A DNA stretch of 64,000 nucleotides from Xanthostigma xanthostigma (lineage: Eukaryota; Arthropoda; Insecta; Raphidioptera; Raphidiidae). Positions 55,448 to 64,000 of the stretch are shown one piece after another. The stretch is taken from assembly GCA_963575645.1 (NCBI GenBank), contig OY754468.1:8184001-8248000 (forward strand). The letters run 5' to 3'. The notes beneath the pieces were generated by a model. That model ran no database searches and was not told the origin of the DNA. It was given only the letters and a program-made list of their open reading frames with translations. The position numbers and the translations under genes are program-made. Positions within the stretch are counted from its first letter, which is position 1; each line of letters starts with the position of its first letter.

Positions 55448-55984
55448 TCATAATGTTTGGCGCGTACATAATTCAGAAACATATTTTCGCAGTTTGAACA
55501 CGTTCTTGCATGCACAATTGTTTGCAAATTTCATGTTTGTATGCGAGACTGTTTTGCAGACGCTCTCATATTTTGAAGGCAGAGACAATACTTTCAACGG
55601 AGGACAGTTCAGACACTCTAAATCCACATAGACTAAATCTTCTGGCCCGTTTTCTTTTAAGAATTTTTGTTTCTCAAGTCCTTTGACGAAAATCAGCTTT
55701 GAACCTTTAAAAATCCTAGTCAAATGTTTCTTCAGTTCGCTATATTCAACGCCTACGCTGTCGCTGTCGCCATCATTCCAATCGAGACCGTTTATTTTTC
55801 GTTTATTGTAAGCATTTTGTTTTTTATATTTCGCGTCGAGTAAACGTTTTTCGTACGGCGGCCCGAACACTATTTGTTCTACACTTTCGCTAAACAAATT
55901 GCAAAATGCCAATTCCTTTGCAAAGTATTCATGCCCGTTACCCACGACGAACTGAACGTCACAAATTCCCGTTTTACAAGACAT
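55448..55984 (-). CDS. Conserved-looking Polinton-associated protein, 178 aa
   Basis: I recognise a pattern seen in proteins from insect genomes and Polinton-like elements, but not a named function: AKELAFCNLF near the start, FGPPY, NGLDWNDGDS, a VKGLEKQKFL block, then DLECLNCPPLKVL and a Cys/His-containing end (CACKNVFKL). The alternation of strands and the KG.EK..FL...V.LE motif hint at an RNase H-like fold, which I cannot verify. The ATG overlaps the stop of the major capsid gene (TAATG), and no promoter signature lies upstream. It is probably translated from the capsid message. Confidence 0.7.
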   Translation of the reverse strand: MSCKTGICDVQFVVGNGHEYFAKELAFCNLFSESVEQIVFGPPYEKRLLDAKYKKQNAYNKRKINGLDWNDGDSDSVGVEYSELKKHLTRIFKGSKLIFVKGLEKQKFLKENGPEDLVYVDLECLNCPPLKVLSLPSKYESVCKTVSHTNMKFANNCACKNVFKLRKYVSELCTRQTL

Positions 55985-57216
55985 TACACAATTTTTGCGA
56001 CCGTATTTTGTAAGGGATGATAGGTGAAGAGTTTATCGTGTATAATCAAACAGTACGCTGTTGTGTTTGGGGAGAAATTTTCGTAAGCTTCGATCATCAA
56101 TTTGATATCTACAACGCCCTTCTTGATGGCTTCCGGTTGTCGCGAGCAATCGAAAACAATTAGCGGTGATTTTGTTTTGAATTCGTTTTTATTCAAAAGA
56201 GGCGCGTTTTTATTTCCATAGAAATAGATTTCCTGTCCCTTGAGATACTTTTCGTATACAATGTTGAAGTCATTTTTTTCGAAATTCATAGAGAGCGGTT
56301 CGTAGGGATACGCTTCGGAATTTAAAAAGAGTTTTGCCGTCCGCAGTTTACAGTGATCGAAGACGCTGCTGTCCTTTAGTTGAGTGCCGTAGCGTTTCGT
56401 TTGAAAACCCACAATGATCAGACGCGGCGTTTCGACTTGATTGGTGGTCGTCACGGTCCATACGTGTTTTGTAGACGTCGGCAGCGCAGGATATTCGTAC
56501 AGATCCCACGATCTGAACACGATGTTTTTATTTTTGTTTGCCGTCTTCAAGAGTTTAATTTTCATATCGTTAGACGGTATAATATAGGGCACGTTCCACT
56601 TAATGGACGTTAATTCTATTTTGCTCGATTTTTGAATTTGTCCTTGAGCTGCTGCAGTTGTTAAAATTGCCGAATTATCGTCTCGCTTACGTATCAATAT
56701 CAATTCTTGTTTACCGTTCACCATCACTCTCTTGTGATCGTGTGCGAAGCCCAAAATGTATTTCAAAGGTATGCTGACGCTAAAGTTTCCCTCCGAATCT
56801 AACAAGTCGGCGTTTTTATTTGAGCTTAAATCCCAACCGCAGTTTGAAAGTGCTCTCACGTCGTCTGGACTGTGCAACACATAGCCGATCATGGTGGCCG
56901 TGATGCCTACGTTTTTAGTAGAGTCAATTGGCATGCCCCACAATTCATAGCGAATTTCCTCAAACAGATGCGCTATTCCGTTGTTGATGATGCTCGAATT
57001 TTCTGGTTTTCCACCGTCTTCGTCGATCAATTTCCCGCGCACTTCGAGCACGCTGTCGTGAGGAAACGTGATGGCATCCTGATTTTGAATTGCTATGCGG
57101 ATTTCATCATTAGACTTTAATTGATTGGTGTTAAACGGTTCCTGTGAGTGAACGCGAATCGAGTCTATACTTTCGTCTAGAACTATCGGAAAGTCGACGG
57201 CCAGAATGTCTTGCAT
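55984..57216 (-). CDS. Major capsid protein, double jelly-roll, 410 aa
   Basis: Hexon-like capsid building block of Polintons/adintoviruses. Conserved features in order: DESIDSIRVHSQEPF near the N terminus, SNDEIRIAIQNQDAIT, VLEVRGKL, FEEIRYELWG, FSVSIPLKYILGF followed by KQELILIRKRDDN, then WDLYEYPALPTSTKHVWTV, and the second barrel with VGFQTKR..., KLFLNSEAYPYEPL and a C-terminal IEAYENF. Trimers of such proteins form pseudo-hexagonal capsomers in the nucleus. Length is in the usual range for the group (about 400-650 aa, at the short end). The gene begins 4 nt after the stop of the lysine-rich protein (TAAAAAAATG) and overlaps the next gene by one base. It has no promoter of its own, so it should be expressed from the penton promoter. 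Confidence 0.93.
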   Translation of the reverse strand: MQDILAVDFPIVLDESIDSIRVHSQEPFNTNQLKSNDEIRIAIQNQDAITFPHDSVLEVRGKLIDEDGGKPENSSIINNGIAHLFEEIRYELWGMPIDSTKNVGITATMIGYVLHSPDDVRALSNCGWDLSSNKNADLLDSEGNFSVSIPLKYILGFAHDHKRVMVNGKQELILIRKRDDNSAILTTAAAQGQIQKSSKIELTSIKWNVPYIIPSNDMKIKLLKTANKNKNIVFRSWDLYEYPALPTSTKHVWTVTTTNQVETPRLIIVGFQTKRYGTQLKDSSVFDHCKLRTAKLFLNSEAYPYEPLSMNFEKNDFNIVYEKYLKGQEIYFYGNKNAPLLNKNEFKTKSPLIVFDCSRQPEAIKKGVVDIKLMIEAYENFSPNTTAYCLIIHDKLFTYHPLQNTVAKIV

Positions 57217-57470: not shown

Positions 57471-58178
57471 TTACAAGCGTTTCAGATGTAAACGCACAGT
57501 GACAGGCTCGCCGTTGAAATTCACTAATCGATCGTTCTGGTCTACAATAGTAACGGTCACGTTGTCTATAACACGACGATTTATCGGCAAATAAATGACG
57601 TTTCTCGGCGTAATGGATATCTTATAGCCAGGCTCCTCTTGTGGATAGAACTGAAAGAGAGTGTGCTCGGGCTGTCCGTTTAAATAGGATCCGCTGACAA
57701 TGTTACACTTCACTCTGACGGCGTTTATTTTTGAAATATGTGCATTAAAATCTGCTTTGTGTGCACTGTTTGCTTCCAGCATCGGACGTGTCATGCTGAA
57801 ACCCAGCAAAGATCCCACACTACCTTCGGCGCCGATGTCTATAATCACATCGCTCTTTATTTCCGTTTTCAACGTGTTGTTGTTTGCCTTGATTCTAATT
57901 GTTCTGTTCACTTTTTTCAACTCTTCGACAAGGTAGTTGTTGATATCATTGATATCGTACGCCCCTTTCGGTATCTCGATCGTTTTCCTATTGTCAGGAA
58001 AGTCTGGATCCTGGTAGACAAATTTATTGTTGGTCTCATCAATATTTGGAATCGAGTGCCACGACTCAAACTCAATCAGTCCCAGTTGATATTCCTCGCT
58101 CTCGTCGAGCACGATCGCCGGATAGAACAGACTGCTCAACACCGATTCGGCTCCGCTCAGGGTGAACGTGAACGACAT
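57471..58178 (-). CDS. Penton / minor capsid protein, single jelly-roll, 235 aa
   Basis: Matches the Polinton minor capsid (penton) protein: MSFTFTLSG start, then EYQLGLIEFESWHSIPNI, KTIEIPKGAYDINDIN, a GSLLGFS block, VKCNIVSGSYLNGQPEHTLFQF, and PINRRVIDNVTVTIVDQND near the end. It fills the five-fold vertices of the capsid. The frame is open to 58,217, but the promoter at 58,221-58,257 makes the ATG at 58,178 the first in its message. That ATG also overlaps the protease stop as TGATG. Heads the penton, lysine-rich, major capsid and 178-aa run. Confidence 0.9.
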   Translation of the reverse strand: MSFTFTLSGAESVLSSLFYPAIVLDESEEYQLGLIEFESWHSIPNIDETNNKFVYQDPDFPDNRKTIEIPKGAYDINDINNYLVEELKKVNRTIRIKANNNTLKTEIKSDVIIDIGAEGSVGSLLGFSMTRPMLEANSAHKADFNAHISKINAVRVKCNIVSGSYLNGQPEHTLFQFYPQEEPGYKISITPRNVIYLPINRRVIDNVTVTIVDQNDRLVNFNGEPVTVRLHLKRL

Positions 58179-58543
58179 CAAGTTTCTAATAGGAAAAACA
58201 AGCAGTGATGTCCGCACAAAACTGAGTTGAATTTCTGTCTTCTCTCGTAGTTATATACTATGTTGCAACCTTTCAAATAGTTGACGGCGAGCTCTTTCGG
58301 CGGTTGCAAGTTGCCGAAACTGTCAAAGTACTGTACATTTTTACCGATTTTTCTATACGCCACCCAATGCGTCCCGGGACCGTCTCTATCATCTAAATTT
58401 ACTACAGCGCTCTCGTTCTTTTTCGGTTTTTTAGGCAGCGCGTTTCTCATGTACACGCCTCTGAAGAACTTGATGCGTAATATTTTAGCATAGCGTTTGA
58501 TTTCCGCATCGGTGAGCGCGTGTTTCGGTAACGTTTTTAAAAG
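58178..58543 (-). CDS. Adenain-like cysteine protease, expressed by -1 frameshift or from an internal start
   Basis: Maturation protease of the adenovirus/Polinton type. The recognisable fold begins with LTDAEIKRYAKILRIKFFRG and continues with GPGTHWVAYRK (catalytic His), VQYFDSFG (Asp) and RRQKFNSVLCGHHC (oxyanion Gln, then the nucleophile Cys seven residues later, as in adenain). The frame is open from 58,576, after a TAG, but contains no ATG until 58,450, which would delete the N-terminal helix. Its upstream part overlaps the end of the PLA2 gene, in the -1 frame relative to it. The heptamer at 58,543-58,549 would join the frames. The coordinates given start at the first base read after the shift. 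An ATG-initiated short form of 90 residues is the alternative. The role is cleavage of capsid precursors during assembly. Confidence 0.85.
   Translation of the reverse strand, partial: LLKTLPKHALTDAEIKRYAKILRIKFFRGVYMRNALPKKPKKNESAVVNLDDRDGPGTHWVAYRKIGKNVQYFDSFGNLQPPKELAVNYLKGCNIVYNYERRQKFNSVLCGHHCLFFLLET
58221..58257 (-). promoter_or_regulatory. TATA plus initiator for the penton-to-178-aa cluster
   Basis: TATATAA starts at 58,257 and TCAGT has +1 at 58,223. It lies inside the protease coding sequence. The 45-nt leader has no other ATG before 58,178. Confidence 0.65.
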
Positions 58544-59421
58544 TTTTTTGAAGCCGTCGCCGCCGGCCGGTAAGGTCTATAATAAAGACCGTAGCCTCGC
58601 CGATAGGGTTTCAAGTAGAGACCGCTTCCTTTCTTGCCGAGCGCTATCGCTTCCATTGTTTCGTTGTGACGATTCGCTTCGGAGAGTTTATCTCTGGCCG
58701 CCTTGGTGTCCATGACGGTTTTGGCGACGTTCGCAGCTCCGCCGGCCAGAGCTCCCAACGCCGACAGACCGGCAAAGAGCGGGATTAGCGGTAAAAATCC
58801 TCCCGTCTTGGGTACGGGTATCACGCGAGATTCACCATTATTTTTTATTGCAGCATTTGCATATTTGTTTACGCCCGTCGAGTTAATTGTATCCAGTTCT
58901 AGCTGTGCTCGTTTAATAAGATCGTTCTTGATGTTAGATTTTCTAGTTTTCACACTTCTTCCTCTCCTTCTCCGTATTCCGGCTGATTTTGCTTTTCTTT
59001 GCCTACTGACGCGTCTGCGTTTAACACCTGCGCCTGCGGAAGAAGTTCTCTTCATTTTTCTTCCCATGCCGAGTTTAGTTTTAATTTTCATAGCGTTTGT
59101 CGTAAGCCACGCGGCAGTTTTTTCACTTAAACTGGAGTCTTTGGCTTTGACGCGATTCCAAGCGCTCTCGAGTAGCTCTCTGTCGGCTGTGTGACGTTCT
59201 TTTAAATCCTTTGTGTTTGCGTAAGCTATGTCGTGCTTTTTGCACGCTTCGTCCAATCGATTCACGCCCAAATCGCCTTTGTTCAAACGTTCCTTTAACT
59301 TTGTTCCGGGTCCGCAATAGCTGTAGCCGGGGATGTGTAATTCAAACGGGAGTTTGTTGATTAACGTGTTGACAAGTCCACGTCCGCTAACTTTATCACT
59401 TGTGGAACGGTAAACGATCAT
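58537..59421 (-). CDS. Minor capsid protein with parvovirus-type phospholipase A2 domain, 294 aa
   Basis: Residues 29-67 hold the secreted-PLA2 core of the parvovirus capsid type: HIPGYSYCGPGTKL (calcium loop) and ACKKHDIAY (catalytic His63-Asp64). Such domains breach the endosomal membrane after uptake. A strongly basic stretch follows (about 120-165, many RR/KR). Then comes a hydrophobic segment (FLPLIPLFAGLSALGALAGG, about 210-230), as in adenovirus pVI/pX-like proteins. The C terminus has GSGLYLKPYRRGYGLYYRP repeats that resemble adenain-type cleavage sites. The ATG at 59,421 follows a GCAGT initiator at 59,436. The end overlaps the protease frame (see the frameshift site). Confidence 0.9.
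   Translation of the reverse strand: MIVYRSTSDKVSGRGLVNTLINKLPFELHIPGYSYCGPGTKLKERLNKGDLGVNRLDEACKKHDIAYANTKDLKERHTADRELLESAWNRVKAKDSSLSEKTAAWLTTNAMKIKTKLGMGRKMKRTSSAGAGVKRRRVSRQRKAKSAGIRRRRGRSVKTRKSNIKNDLIKRAQLELDTINSTGVNKYANAAIKNNGESRVIPVPKTGGFLPLIPLFAGLSALGALAGGAANVAKTVMDTKAARDKLSEANRHNETMEAIALGKKGSGLYLKPYRRGYGLYYRPYRPAATASKNF
58543..58549 (-). promoter_or_regulatory. Candidate -1 ribosomal frameshift site, A AAA AAC
   Basis: In the PLA2 frame the codons read TCA AAA AAC TTT TAA, which is the optimal X XXY YYZ slippery heptamer. The zero-frame stop follows after one codon. A -1 slip continues CTT TTA AAA ACG into the protease frame. A GC-containing stretch (CCGAAACACGCGCTCACCGA, about 58,515-58,534) lies downstream at stimulator distance; a convincing stem-loop was not established by eye. 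Confidence 0.6.
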
Positions 59422-59494: not shown

Positions 59495-60514
59495 CTATAC
59501 CACATCTTTCTTGTCTATCCACGAGTTGTGACTGTTGTCGAAGCCCAACCATTTGACGTACAATCTGTTACCTTTCGTTCTCAAGACTCTCTCCACCAAA
59601 TAGACATTGTTGTGATTGGGCACTTTTTGAATTTCCTCCTCGTAAAAGCCGCCCTTAATCGGTGTATTGTTTGCGTCGACCAGCTCATAAGTGTGCGGAT
59701 TGGTGGTCAGTTTTACTTTAGACACAGTAAAAACTTCAGTAGTCCAGTTGGGCAGGTAGCCTTTGTCGAACAAATGTTTGTATTTACTTATGCGCACGCG
59801 ATCGCCGACGTGTATTTTTTGTTTTCTCAAATCCACTCGCTTGACTGCCGAATAGACGGTTTTCAGTAATTTCTTTTCATTTTTTTCATTAACCTGTCTG
59901 GGTTTCATTTTTATCGTTCTGTGTTTGGTATTGTTATAGTCGGCTACAATGTTCGGCAACGCCGTGAGCCACTTGTAATTACCTTCGATGCTGAAGCGTT
60001 TCCACAGTCGCGCCTTCAGTGTTCTTATGAAGCGCTCGACAATGCTACTCTTTAAATTGCTAAAGCTCGAATAGTGATTGATGGAATATTTTTTCATTAA
60101 ATTTTGAAAATTTGAATTGTAAAATTCCGTTCCGTTGTCAGTTTGCAGATTACGGGGTGGCTTTTTAAGTTTTTTTAGAATTTTCAACATTGCGTCCGCC
60201 ACCTCCTTTCCACGTTTACTTTTCAGCGGTTGCGTCCACGCATACTTGGAAAACGCATCGATTACGGTGAGAATGTATCTGTAGTTGCTGTTCACGCCGG
60301 CGTACGGAATCATTTCTGCGAGATCGGCCTGATACAGGTCGTACAGACCCTTGACGAGCACACGTCTGCGGCGATAGTTCTTTCTCGCCGGCTTGTGCAG
60401 CTCGTTGACAATTCTAATTTTTTCTGCAGAGGCTTTTTGCGATAATATTTTGACGTTGTTGTTCTTGTTGTTGATGGCGGTGTTATTTCGCGTTCGAAGA
60501 CGACCGCGTTTCAT
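59495..60514 (-). CDS. Polinton integrase (DDE, RNase H fold) with C-terminal chromodomain, 339 aa
   Basis: Inserts viral DNA into the host genome. Catalytic residues are visible as YQADLAEM (Asp64), LQTDNGTEFYN (Asp126) and SIVERFIRTLKARLW (Glu160). This is followed by NDYNNTKHRTIKM-type sequence (ADYNNTKHRTI) and an SH3-like DNA-binding segment (HVGDRVRISKYKHLFDKGYLPNWTTEVF). Residues about 300-338 form a chromodomain (YLVERVLRTKGNRLYVKWLGF...W), which in other elements recognises methylated histones and steers integration. The N-terminal zinc-binding HHCC domain is not evident; the first 50 residues are basic and Asn-rich. The start overlaps the end of the upstream gene by 32 nt in another frame. 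Confidence 0.93.
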   Translation of the reverse strand: MKRGRLRTRNNTAINNKNNNVKILSQKASAEKIRIVNELHKPARKNYRRRRVLVKGLYDLYQADLAEMIPYAGVNSNYRYILTVIDAFSKYAWTQPLKSKRGKEVADAMLKILKKLKKPPRNLQTDNGTEFYNSNFQNLMKKYSINHYSSFSNLKSSIVERFIRTLKARLWKRFSIEGNYKWLTALPNIVADYNNTKHRTIKMKPRQVNEKNEKKLLKTVYSAVKRVDLRKQKIHVGDRVRISKYKHLFDKGYLPNWTTEVFTVSKVKLTTNPHTYELVDANNTPIKGGFYEEEIQKVPNHNNVYLVERVLRTKGNRLYVKWLGFDNSHNSWIDKKDVV

Positions 60515-61386: not shown

Positions 61387-61983
61387 TCACTCGCTTAATA
61401 ACGGATAGCGTAGGTATATTTCCACGCCTAGCGTAACCCTGTCTTTAATTTTTAACGCCGCCGTTCTTGCACTAGCTGAAAATTTTATGCGATCACCGGT
61501 GTGGATTATAGTCGATTCAAGCGTCGAATACAATTTATCGTTGATGAATATATTTGCGTCCACAGGCGACGTTCTTATAGACCGTATTTCCATTCCGTCG
61601 CACTCCTCGCCGAATATATACTCTACGAATCCTTCGGTTAGAGTATAATGATTTTCGGGTGTTAATTTAGCATCGCGACTGAACAGACGAATCAAAAAAT
61701 GTCCGCGATATGTTCTCAAAGAATTCTTTATCGATAGGGGTATTGTATTGTCGATAAAGTGGTTCATCAGACTTATTAATTTATTGTTTAAATATTCAAT
61801 CGTGACAGCGTCCTGTTGGTCTGTCGGATCACCGACATTTGTCAGTTTTTTGCCATTAAAGTCTAAATTATTATCTACAATTTTAAAGCCGAGTGTAGAA
61901 GAGAGAACAGGAGGAGGAAAAGGATCGTGAATTAATTTCCACTGCCGACGTCTACTGTGTCTTCCAAACTTGTCCACGGGCAT
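61387..61983 (-). CDS. Fiber-like / attachment-type protein, 198 aa
   Basis: Residues about 35-70 read LDFNGKKLTNVGDPTDQQDAVTIEYLN. This is the pattern of phage and viral fibre shafts (L.L.GK.ITNV..PT...DAVTK.YVD) that precedes trimeric coiled or beta-helical fibres. A conserved N-terminal MPVDKFGRHSRR peptide could anchor it to the penton. A short coiled segment (LISLMNHFID) and a beta-rich C-terminal domain (GHFLIRLF, DRVTLGVEIYLRY) follow, which could be a knob. The receptor-binding role is inferred from architecture only. The ATG is 14 nt after a strong TATA/TCAGT promoter. Confidence 0.75.
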   Translation of the reverse strand: MPVDKFGRHSRRRQWKLIHDPFPPPVLSSTLGFKIVDNNLDFNGKKLTNVGDPTDQQDAVTIEYLNNKLISLMNHFIDNTIPLSIKNSLRTYRGHFLIRLFSRDAKLTPENHYTLTEGFVEYIFGEECDGMEIRSIRTSPVDANIFINDKLYSTLESTIIHTGDRIKFSASARTAALKIKDRVTLGVEIYLRYPLLSE

Positions 61984-63018: not shown

Positions 63019-63054
63019 ACTGCGTAATAATTGAACGGGACGTGTATATTTATA
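63019..63054 (-). promoter_or_regulatory. TATA plus initiator for the DUF8207-like gene
   Basis: TATAAA starts at 63,054; GCAGT has +1 at 63,021, 33 nt downstream. Again the TATA box contains the stop codon of the preceding gene (ATPase, GTA TAA). Confidence 0.7.
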
Positions 63055-63754
63055 CTTGCTGTTTCACGGCTATAAATTTGTCAAAATTCACTCTATATCG
63101 ACCTTTGTTTAGATCCGAGTCTCTATCGATCACGAAAAAATTGTACTTGTTCTCCGCCCAGCACTTGACACAGAGATTTTTAAACTCTTGAAAAGTCATA
63201 TCGGTGTTGACATAATCATCATAAGCATGATGCAAGTTCATGTCGTCTTGCTTGAAGAGCACAATAAAATTAGCATTGTCTCTGACGAGCTGTTTGGGTA
63301 TTCTACTGTACGACTGACATAGGTAAAAACTGTCGACGCTAGCGTGTCGTCCCATGCTAAAGTATTCGCGAATGTTGCTCTGACTTTCACACGCCACATC
63401 GTCGAAAATAAAAATTGAATTCGGCTTTGCCTCGTTCGGATGCATTATTGTTTCACTGTCGGTAAAGGTGTAATAGCCCATTCCACTGACGCCGCTCAAG
63501 ATCTCTGCAAGCAGTCGATATTTCTCCTGTTGCAGAGATTTCGAGTATACGTATACATTTTCAAACTTTAGTCCGTTGCTGTCGATCAACAAGGAAACCA
63601 TAACATTGGTCTTACCGCAATTCGACGGACCAACAACAATACACCTCACACTAGTGGGAAGTAAAACTCCATGTTTCTTAATTATTGTCTGTGCACTTTT
63701 TTTTTTATCTAGATTTAAAATTTCAATCTTTACCGGCTGCTGTAACAGTTTCAT
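63050..63754 (-). CDS. FtsK/HerA-type genome-packaging ATPase, 234 aa
   Basis: Drives DNA into capsids. Walker A GPSNCGKT at residues 42-49, Walker B IFIFDD at 114-119, then a sensor region (SFYLCQSYSRIPKQLVRDNANFIVLF) typical of the A32-like clade of Polintons, adintoviruses and NCLDVs. The frame is open to an ATG at 63,826, but the TATA/TCAGT pair puts transcription start at 63,780, so the ATG at 63,754 (MKLLQQPVK) is used. Length is normal for the family. It is the rightmost complete gene in the window. Confidence 0.93.
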   Translation of the reverse strand: MKLLQQPVKIEILNLDKKKSAQTIIKKHGVLLPTSVRCIVVGPSNCGKTNVMVSLLIDSNGLKFENVYVYSKSLQQEKYRLLAEILSGVSGMGYYTFTDSETIMHPNEAKPNSIFIFDDVACESQSNIREYFSMGRHASVDSFYLCQSYSRIPKQLVRDNANFIVLFKQDDMNLHHAYDDYVNTDMTFQEFKNLCVKCWAENKYNFFVIDRDSDLNKGRYRVNFDKFIAVKQQV

Positions 63755-63777
63755 TTTTTGATCACAGCTCACGAGCA

Positions 63778-63814
63778 ACTGAGGAAGAAATGGTGTGTGT
63801 AAGTTTTTTATATA
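63778..63814 (-). promoter_or_regulatory. TATA plus initiator for the packaging ATPase
   Basis: TATATAAAA starts at 63,814; CTCAGTT has +1 at 63,780, 34 nt from the first T (32 from the inner TATAAAA). The best-formed promoter of the set. Confidence 0.7.
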
Positions 63815-63826
63815 GAAGAAAAGCAA

Positions 63827-64000
63827 TGAACTTTTAATTCAAAGATTGCACCACTTTAATCAGTCTGAAATGAAAAAATAAAAAAAGTAAACAGTGTTGA
63901 GTTTTACAAATTGAAAAATTTAATAAATTTATAAAAATACAATAATCAATAATAAAAAAAATATATGGATATTTTTGTTAGTAAATTACAACAATTTTAT
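63827..64000. other. AT-rich intergenic end of window
   Basis: No gene. Contains several AATAAA/TTTATT motifs on both strands, suggesting a 3' end of the next gene(s) beyond the window. Confidence 0.4.

Follow-up and report, generated by a model that had tools for sequence, protein, structure and literature searches.

A Polinton-like element appears to make its maturation protease only through a one-base ribosomal slip at the end of its capsid-lipase gene

Frameshifting of the Gag-Pro kind is characteristic of retroviruses and related elements, and -1 frameshift sites of the MMTV/HTLV type use the heptamer A AAA AAC. Among adintoviruses, a 2024 preprint (in the parts available) mentions -1 slippery sites that KnotInFrame predicts close to the 3' ends of some penton ORFs, and it proposes a "similar relationship" for hexon-adenain ("Hexain") ORFs (PMC11071296). 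Insect Mavericks are described, in the available part of another source, as having both CAP (PLA2) and PRO (PMC5803895). In the available portions of that paper and of PMC8363768, PMC8097293, PMC9683012, PMC10120064, PMC12721341, PMC12567637, PMC8547959, PMC6905037, PMC6431247 and PMC5601938, "frameshift" refers to decay, search settings, variants or other elements, or does not appear in the main text; those of PMC4028283 and PMC12945077 contain nothing on such a frameshift. The original prediction for the locus described here stated that no frameshift was known in the expression of adintovirus or Polinton proteases. Given the penton and hexon-adenain proposals (PMC11071296, available parts), this was too broad; a PLA2-protease frameshift, however, is not described in the parts of the literature on Polintons, Mavericks and adintoviruses that were searched.

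The window (the whole 64,000-nucleotide stretch of DNA that was analysed) contains a Polinton/adintovirus-like element in its last 12 kb, on the minus strand, as judged by Pfam matches to its proteins. Our list of ORFs covers 45-64 kb of the window. The element encodes an A32-like ATPase, an integrase with a chromodomain, a PLA2-domain protein, an adenain-like protease, a gene in the penton position and a double jelly roll hexon; the ATPase gene adjoins the window's end at 64,000. As in other Polintons and adintoviruses (Eupolintoviridae), there is an rve integrase with a chromodomain (the chromodomain match is below the Pfam cut-off), and a double jelly roll hexon is found together with a packaging ATPase and an adenain-like protease. 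An NCBIfam search with seven proteins gave no match. The features are:

63050..63826, minus strand: A32-like packaging ATPase (PF04665, E 2e-06)
59495..60514, minus strand: retrovirus-like integrase with chromodomain (PF00665, E 3.4e-13; PF00385, E 7.6e-4, below cut-off)
58537..59421, minus strand: PLA2-domain capsid-associated protein, 294 aa, 0 frame (Pfam PF08398, E 5.1e-14)
58621..58635, minus strand: KKGS↓G motif in the PLA2 tail, a second possible cleavage site (GXG-type motif, recurrent in homologues)
58588..58602, minus strand: RRGY↓G motif in the PLA2 tail, a possible protease cleavage site (GXG-type motif, common to PLA2 homologues)
58577..58579, minus strand: TAG, the upstream limit of the -1 (protease) frame (direct reading of the window copy, L060)
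58543..58549, minus strand: slippery heptamer A AAA AAC, 0-frame codons TCA AAA AAC (same phase in 48 of 49 protease loci of this genome)
58537..58539, minus strand: 0-frame stop TAA, one codon past the heptamer (direct reading)
58178..58543, minus strand: adenain-like protease, -1 frame, 121 aa after the slip, stop at 58180-58178 (Peptidase_C5, adenain profile, AlphaFold, Foldseek)
58448..58450, minus strand: earliest ATG in the protease frame (M32); helix 12-21 lies before it and strand 27-32 ends there
57471..58178, minus strand: next gene, putative penton by position only (no Pfam match)
55984..57216, minus strand: hexon, double jelly roll major capsid protein (PF21738, E 3.3e-93)

Two other observations concern the gene map. 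The gene in the penton position has an ATG that overlaps the stop of the protease (TGATG, 58176-58180), which is a possible termination-reinitiation arrangement, and in the other subfamily of this element (see below) this ATG is a few bases 3' of the stop. Also, the ORF at 61387-61983 weakly resembles a phage tail fibre (PF03906, E 0.01, below cut-off) and is a candidate fibre or spike gene, as are the genes that resemble it in two contigs from other collections (5221-7731 of L001 and 3833-5299 of L002).

By direct reading of the minus strand, the PLA2 ORF ends in TCA AAA AAC TTT TAA (58551-58537), with A AAA AAC at 58549-58543 in the phase of the 0 frame. After the slip, the -1 frame reads CTT TTA AAA ACG and remains open to the protease stop (58178-58543, 121 aa, no inner stops). 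The protease as read from the slip is LLKTLPKHALTDAEIKRYAKILRIKFFRGVYM..., and the last M of this stretch is the first ATG, codon 32 (58450); LPKHALTDAEIK is an example of the N-terminal peptide. There is no ATG in the protease frame between the upstream TAG (58579-58577) and codon 32. The predicted shifted product has 293 + 121 = 414 amino acids. The original prediction had described the end of the PLA2 gene, the phase of the heptamer, the adenain-like protease in the -1 frame, the lack of an ATG before 58450 and a fusion of about 414 residues (293 plus 121), and our reading agrees at each of these points. The junction therefore has an X XXY YYZ heptamer in the 0-frame phase and inside the overlap of the two ORFs. 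In the window element and its near relatives, the -1 ORF also lacks a start of its own, and this arrangement is conserved, yet 31 of the 120 listed protease homologues start upstream.

AAAAAAC occurs 53 times in the 64,000 nt of the minus strand, and the chance of an in-phase occurrence between the two stops (about 12 in-phase positions) is about 1%. Heptamers of the form XXXYYYZ are about twelve times commoner than AAAAAAC (117 versus 10 in the 12-kb element strand). It is the conservation results, not this figure of about 1%, that carry the claim of frameshifting. A second AAAAAAC lies inside the protease gene (58426-58432); it is read CCT AAA AAA CCG, out of the slip phase, which illustrates that the heptamer alone is common.

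A protein search of the 623-Mb assembly (28 contigs) identified 49 protease loci, as did two further queries, and we compared all 49 stretches, including the window's own copy (L060). In 48 of the 49, TCAAAAAACTTTTAA is present and the protease follows in the -1 frame, and 42 of those 48 have a near full-length PLA2 ORF (289-297 aa). In the exception (L023), a stop replaces the TCA before the slip; we consider this a decayed copy. The first M after the slip is at index 20 in 30 copies and at index 31 in the other 18. When grouped by the protein after the slip, the 48 copies form groups of 29 and 17, plus two single divergent copies (L057 and L059). Copies within each main group are near-identical and dispersed and are therefore recent and not independent of each other; so many dispersed copies with open frames suggest that the element was active recently. 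In L057, PLA2 and protease are in the same frame, but this is not a natural fusion: the frames were joined by a deletion in the PLA2 tail and the protease has a stop, so this copy is decayed. Two database proteins (P0069 and P0108) also look like in-frame PLA2-protease proteins; they are known here as protein sequences.

The PLA2 proteins of the two main subfamilies (A, which includes the window's copy, and B) are 77% identical, with pS of 0.46 and pN of 0.13; the last four PLA2 codons include too few identical codons to be informative. Between A and B, the segment from the slip to M32 has 13 differences, of which 8 are at third positions of the -1 frame (pS 0.27, pN 0.10), and if it is read in either of the other two frames then pN exceeds pS. 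This segment, which has no ATG, looks coding in the -1 frame, to judge from this pair of subfamilies. Compared to L057, the third-position changes are 12 of 21 for A and 8 of 12 for B; compared to L059, they are 3 of 6 for A and 6 of 14 for B, and the coding signal between B and L059 is weak (pS 0.20, pN 0.14). The single difference between A and L056 is at a third position.

To look further afield, we compared the C-termini of PLA2 homologues (the best 120 of 2,350), as protein sequences. KN followed by 0-2 residues and the stop is found at the end of 117 of these 120 (the exceptions are P0154, P0225 and P0235), while the spacing between KN and the GLYL-like motif before it is variable (6 to 14 residues in most). 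Every residue found before KN in the 117 tails can be encoded by an NNA codon (S55, P25, Q16, K8, T6, A4, E1, G1, V1). F, Y, H, N, D, C, W and M, which make up 20% of tail composition, are never found there. If the homologues are thinned to 78 representatives, KN is present in 76, and the chance of seeing no exception before KN is then 2.8e-8 given the composition of the tails or 1.8e-7 given that of the whole proteins, assuming independence. After KN, the 117 tails have Y37, F28, stop 23, C18, S7, L1, I1, H1 and R1, so that in 114 of 117 (all but the I, H and R) the next codon could be TNN. As CTN encodes Leu for any N, variation after KN is silent in the -1 frame while it replaces residues in the 0 frame. 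A fixed NNA AAA AAC T would produce this pattern, as far as protein sequences can tell. In three protease homologues that start upstream (P0010, P0039 and P0079), the LP motif is preceded by KKL, the residues expected from A AAA AAC T.

A distant relative with this arrangement is an IMG/VR contig (L001) whose protease is 40% identical to the window's. Upstream of the protease, L001 has a 0-frame ORF of 207 aa that has no Pfam match and that ends in AAA AAA AAA AAC CCA GAG TTT TAA, which is the same heptamer, in phase. Its protease is encoded in the -1 frame, which is closed by a stop three codons 5' of the slip and contains no ATG upstream of MRND. The run of 11 consecutive A in L001 makes polymerase slippage or an assembly error possible at this site. 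The only homologue of the 0-frame ORF that we found is 100% identical to it. The scan of IMG/VR gave one protease relative (L001, recurring as L061 and L072) and one PLA2 locus of another type (L003). The sole match among GTDB contigs, in a bacterial bin (L002), has an ATG-started protease. L062-L071 and L073-L079 proved to be noise on inspection, and tblastn searches with the protease against phages, and with PLA2 against phages and plasmids, gave no matches. In all, the heptamer and its phase, for which the original prediction proposed a comparison of relatives, recur in 48 of 49 loci in the same genome, in L001 and, by inference from protein, in 117 of the best 120 PLA2 tails.

The identification of the protease rests on several comparisons. 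Its match to Peptidase_C5 is below the Pfam cut-off (E 9.5e-4), and a profile match to adenain (1avp, E 1.6e-4) begins at adenain residue 7. AlphaFold, given an alignment of 59 sequences, models the 121 aa with a mean pLDDT of 93.8, and the best Foldseek matches are to the human adenovirus 2 protease (1nln, E 4.8e-07) and to the adenain of the Terrapene box turtle adintovirus (TM 0.81). H59, D74 and C110, which we take to be the catalytic residues of an adenain-type protease, are invariant in 20 aligned sequences and are all after M32. The predicted fold and the His/Asp/Cys arrangement are those of adenain (peptidase C5). In the model, helix 12-21 and strand 27-32 precede or reach M32, and both are conserved among the aligned proteases; this agrees with the original prediction of a conserved N-terminal helix encoded before 58450. 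A start at M32 is unlikely, given the model and alignment, because the protease would lose its first helix and first strand.

Called starts in protease homologues (120 matches listed of 173 found) are mixed; these were compared as proteins, and a called start written as M may be ATG, GTG or TTG. Relative to the FRG strand, the start is 10-31 aa before it in 42 of the 120, further upstream in 37, and within 9 aa before it or after it in 41. We count these 41, which were called only from near or after FRG, as favoring frameshifting. In contrast, 31 of the 120 form a class of about 147 aa that has its own upstream start and keeps the N-terminal helix, and 28 of these 31 lack KKL or KKI before LP. 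The original prediction had held that ATG-started proteases with the same helix and no slippery site would count against it. This is borne out in part: 28 of the 120 listed homologues have an upstream start but not the slip signature, and the protease of L002 is ATG-started. The frameshift mechanism is therefore not universal. In one of the 31 (P0004), the extension can be aligned to -1-frame sequence 5' of the slip in the genome studied here, and may overlap the PLA2 tail.

Stimulatory RNA structures downstream of the slip are usual, but not universal, at -1 frameshift sites. The original prediction suggested a pseudoknot as something to look for, and we found none: minimum free energy folding of L060, L034 and L001 gave z from -0.88 to +1.80, with no stem or pseudoknot that clearly beats shuffled sequences, and a simple search for H-type pseudoknots in L060, L034, L057 and L059 gave no candidate. 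On its own, A AAA AAC with a stop behind it may allow shifting at a low rate; we infer that such a rate could be enough for a protease needed in few copies.

On the comparative evidence, the best explanation is that this junction is probably a programmed -1 frameshift site of the Gag-Pro type in a Polinton/adintovirus. Most ribosomes would read the PLA2 capsid protein through to the TAA, and a minority, at a rate we can only presume to be low, would slip on A AAA AAC into the -1 frame and make the PLA2-protease fusion (293 + 121 aa). Slippage is the simplest route to the protease because its N-terminal helix could not come from any in-frame ATG. Through the fusion, a few protease copies would enter the particle beside their substrate, and cleavage at the GXG sites of the PLA2 tail could then release them. 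Support comes from the sequence, the phase, the missing ATG, the conservation, the coding-like segment between A and B, and the predicted adenain fold. Against it we count the lack of a stimulatory structure, the upstream-start homologues, the near-cognate codons by the slip and the weak coding signal between B and L059, and also that the copies in this genome are recent and non-independent and that the homologues (the best 120 of 2,350) were compared at the protein level.

Each of the other explanations accounts for part of these data. The ribosome might reinitiate after termination, or initiate at a non-AUG codon, just past the PLA2 stop, using a near-cognate codon here and an ATG in those relatives that have one. 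Near-cognate codons do lie no more than five codons from the slip in all three elements: A has ACG, B has ATA and TTG, and L001 has ATC. Moreover, the 42 of 120 listed homologues that start 10-31 aa before FRG start at about this place, and the protease stop overlaps the next gene (TGATG). Nevertheless, we consider this improbable: it does not explain the conserved NNA AAA AAC T in a fixed phase, the near-cognate codon differs between subfamilies, and such codons are frequent by chance (9 of 64). It is quite improbable that a spliced or separately initiated message provides an upstream in-frame ATG and that the heptamer is incidental. The in-frame start about 30 codons upstream in 31 of the 120 listed homologues would fit such a message, as would a pyrimidine run and AG just upstream (CTTTTTTTAAG) in L023, L056, L059 and the subfamily B copies examined. 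However, the window copy has TTTATTATAG at this site. Also, the AG is part of an Arg codon, and GL(Y/F)L(K/R)PY motifs among the best 120 of 2,350 PLA2 homologues have Lys 89 times and Arg 14 times, so conservation of the AG is unsupported (although a Lys codon AAG could also give AG), whereas KN is conserved.

The remaining two explanations seem weaker to us. The KN(F/Y/C) tail could be conserved because it functions as a C-terminal peptide, in the manner of adenovirus pVIc, with the protease starting at the internal M32. The length of many tails (counted from the last GX↓G, 11-12 aa in 74 of the 119 homologues, versus 11 aa for pVIc in the available part of PMC4246237) and the location of H59, D74 and C110 downstream of M32 are compatible with this. 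But constraint on a peptide predicts neither F, Y, C, S or stop with a constant T as the first base nor NNA before KN, and a start at M32 would delete the conserved helix and strand, so this is very unlikely. Finally, transcriptional slippage on the A run could yield -1 messages, and L001 has 11 consecutive A; the window has only six, and the AAC T context is conserved even though slippage on an A run needs no such context, which makes this idea hardly credible.

Returning to the frameshift reading, the PLA2 tail itself resembles a part of the adenovirus system. In the last 45 residues of the best 120 of 2,350 homologues, we found XXGXG followed by a hydrophobic-aromatic pair in 119, and at least two such motifs in 115. 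The peptide that starts at the last P1' Gly is 11 or 12 residues long in 74 of the 119 and 17 residues long in the window's own PLA2. By analogy, these GXG motifs point to possible cutting sites in the fusion, and perhaps to the reason for the position of this tail next to the protease. According to the available part of PMC4246237, pVIc is the 11-aa end of adenovirus pVI and a partner of the protease, and is released at IVGL↓G; its Gly1', the hydrophobic position 2' and Phe11' are important; and the protease also cuts a non-consensus site, QRGF↓G. In both systems, then, a precursor capsid protein has a short tail after a GX↓G site, with the 11-aa tail serving as the partner of the protease in adenovirus, for which that part of the paper describes no translational fusion (PMC4246237). 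Furthermore, pVIc has Cys10', unlike the PLA2 tails, which have no fixed Cys (Cys follows KN in 18 of 117 tails, from the best 120 of 2,350). The resemblance to pVIc leaves the frame pattern after KN unexplained. A more speculative idea, which we think is rather unlikely, is that in Polintons with PLA2, this protein plays the part of pVI: its final 11-12 residues, behind a GX↓G site, would be a pVIc-like partner peptide, the conserved terminal A AAA AAC T would turn this peptide into a tether for the protease in a minority of chains, and lineages that gained an upstream start would have lost the slip site. If so, adenovirus keeps as two genes what these Polintons make as one frameshift fusion.

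Insect Mavericks are similar in that insect Polintons have a PLA2-type CAP and an adenain-type PRO, but the available part of PMC5803895 treats these as separate ORFs and uses "frameshift" for errantiviruses. The penton and hexon-adenain proposals for adintoviruses are closer, as they concern the same virus group and a predicted -1 shift that joins adenain to a capsid gene; in the available parts of that preprint (PMC11071296), the PLA2 junction is not named, the idea is called hypothetical, and there is no conservation test. Frameshifting of this type is a classical mechanism, and one already suspected for this group of viruses, while the gene pair, the conservation test and the class of upstream-start proteases without the slip site were not found in the literature searched. 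If the frameshift reading is correct, then protease annotations that start at an internal ATG need correcting, and the assembly of Polinton particles becomes testable, with the fusion peptide as a target for mass spectrometry and the slip site as a clean reporter. A close parallel is retroviral Gag-Pro, which shares the heptamer and its phase at the end of a structural gene, a protease without an ATG in the -1 frame, and a fusion of structural protein and protease. Here, in contrast, the element is a dsDNA one, the protease is an adenain-type cysteine protease and its partner a capsid-associated PLA2 protein, and no stimulatory structure was found. The retroviral solution would thus recur in a dsDNA virus lineage that is related to adenoviruses, using a capsid-associated lipase and an adenovirus-type protease.
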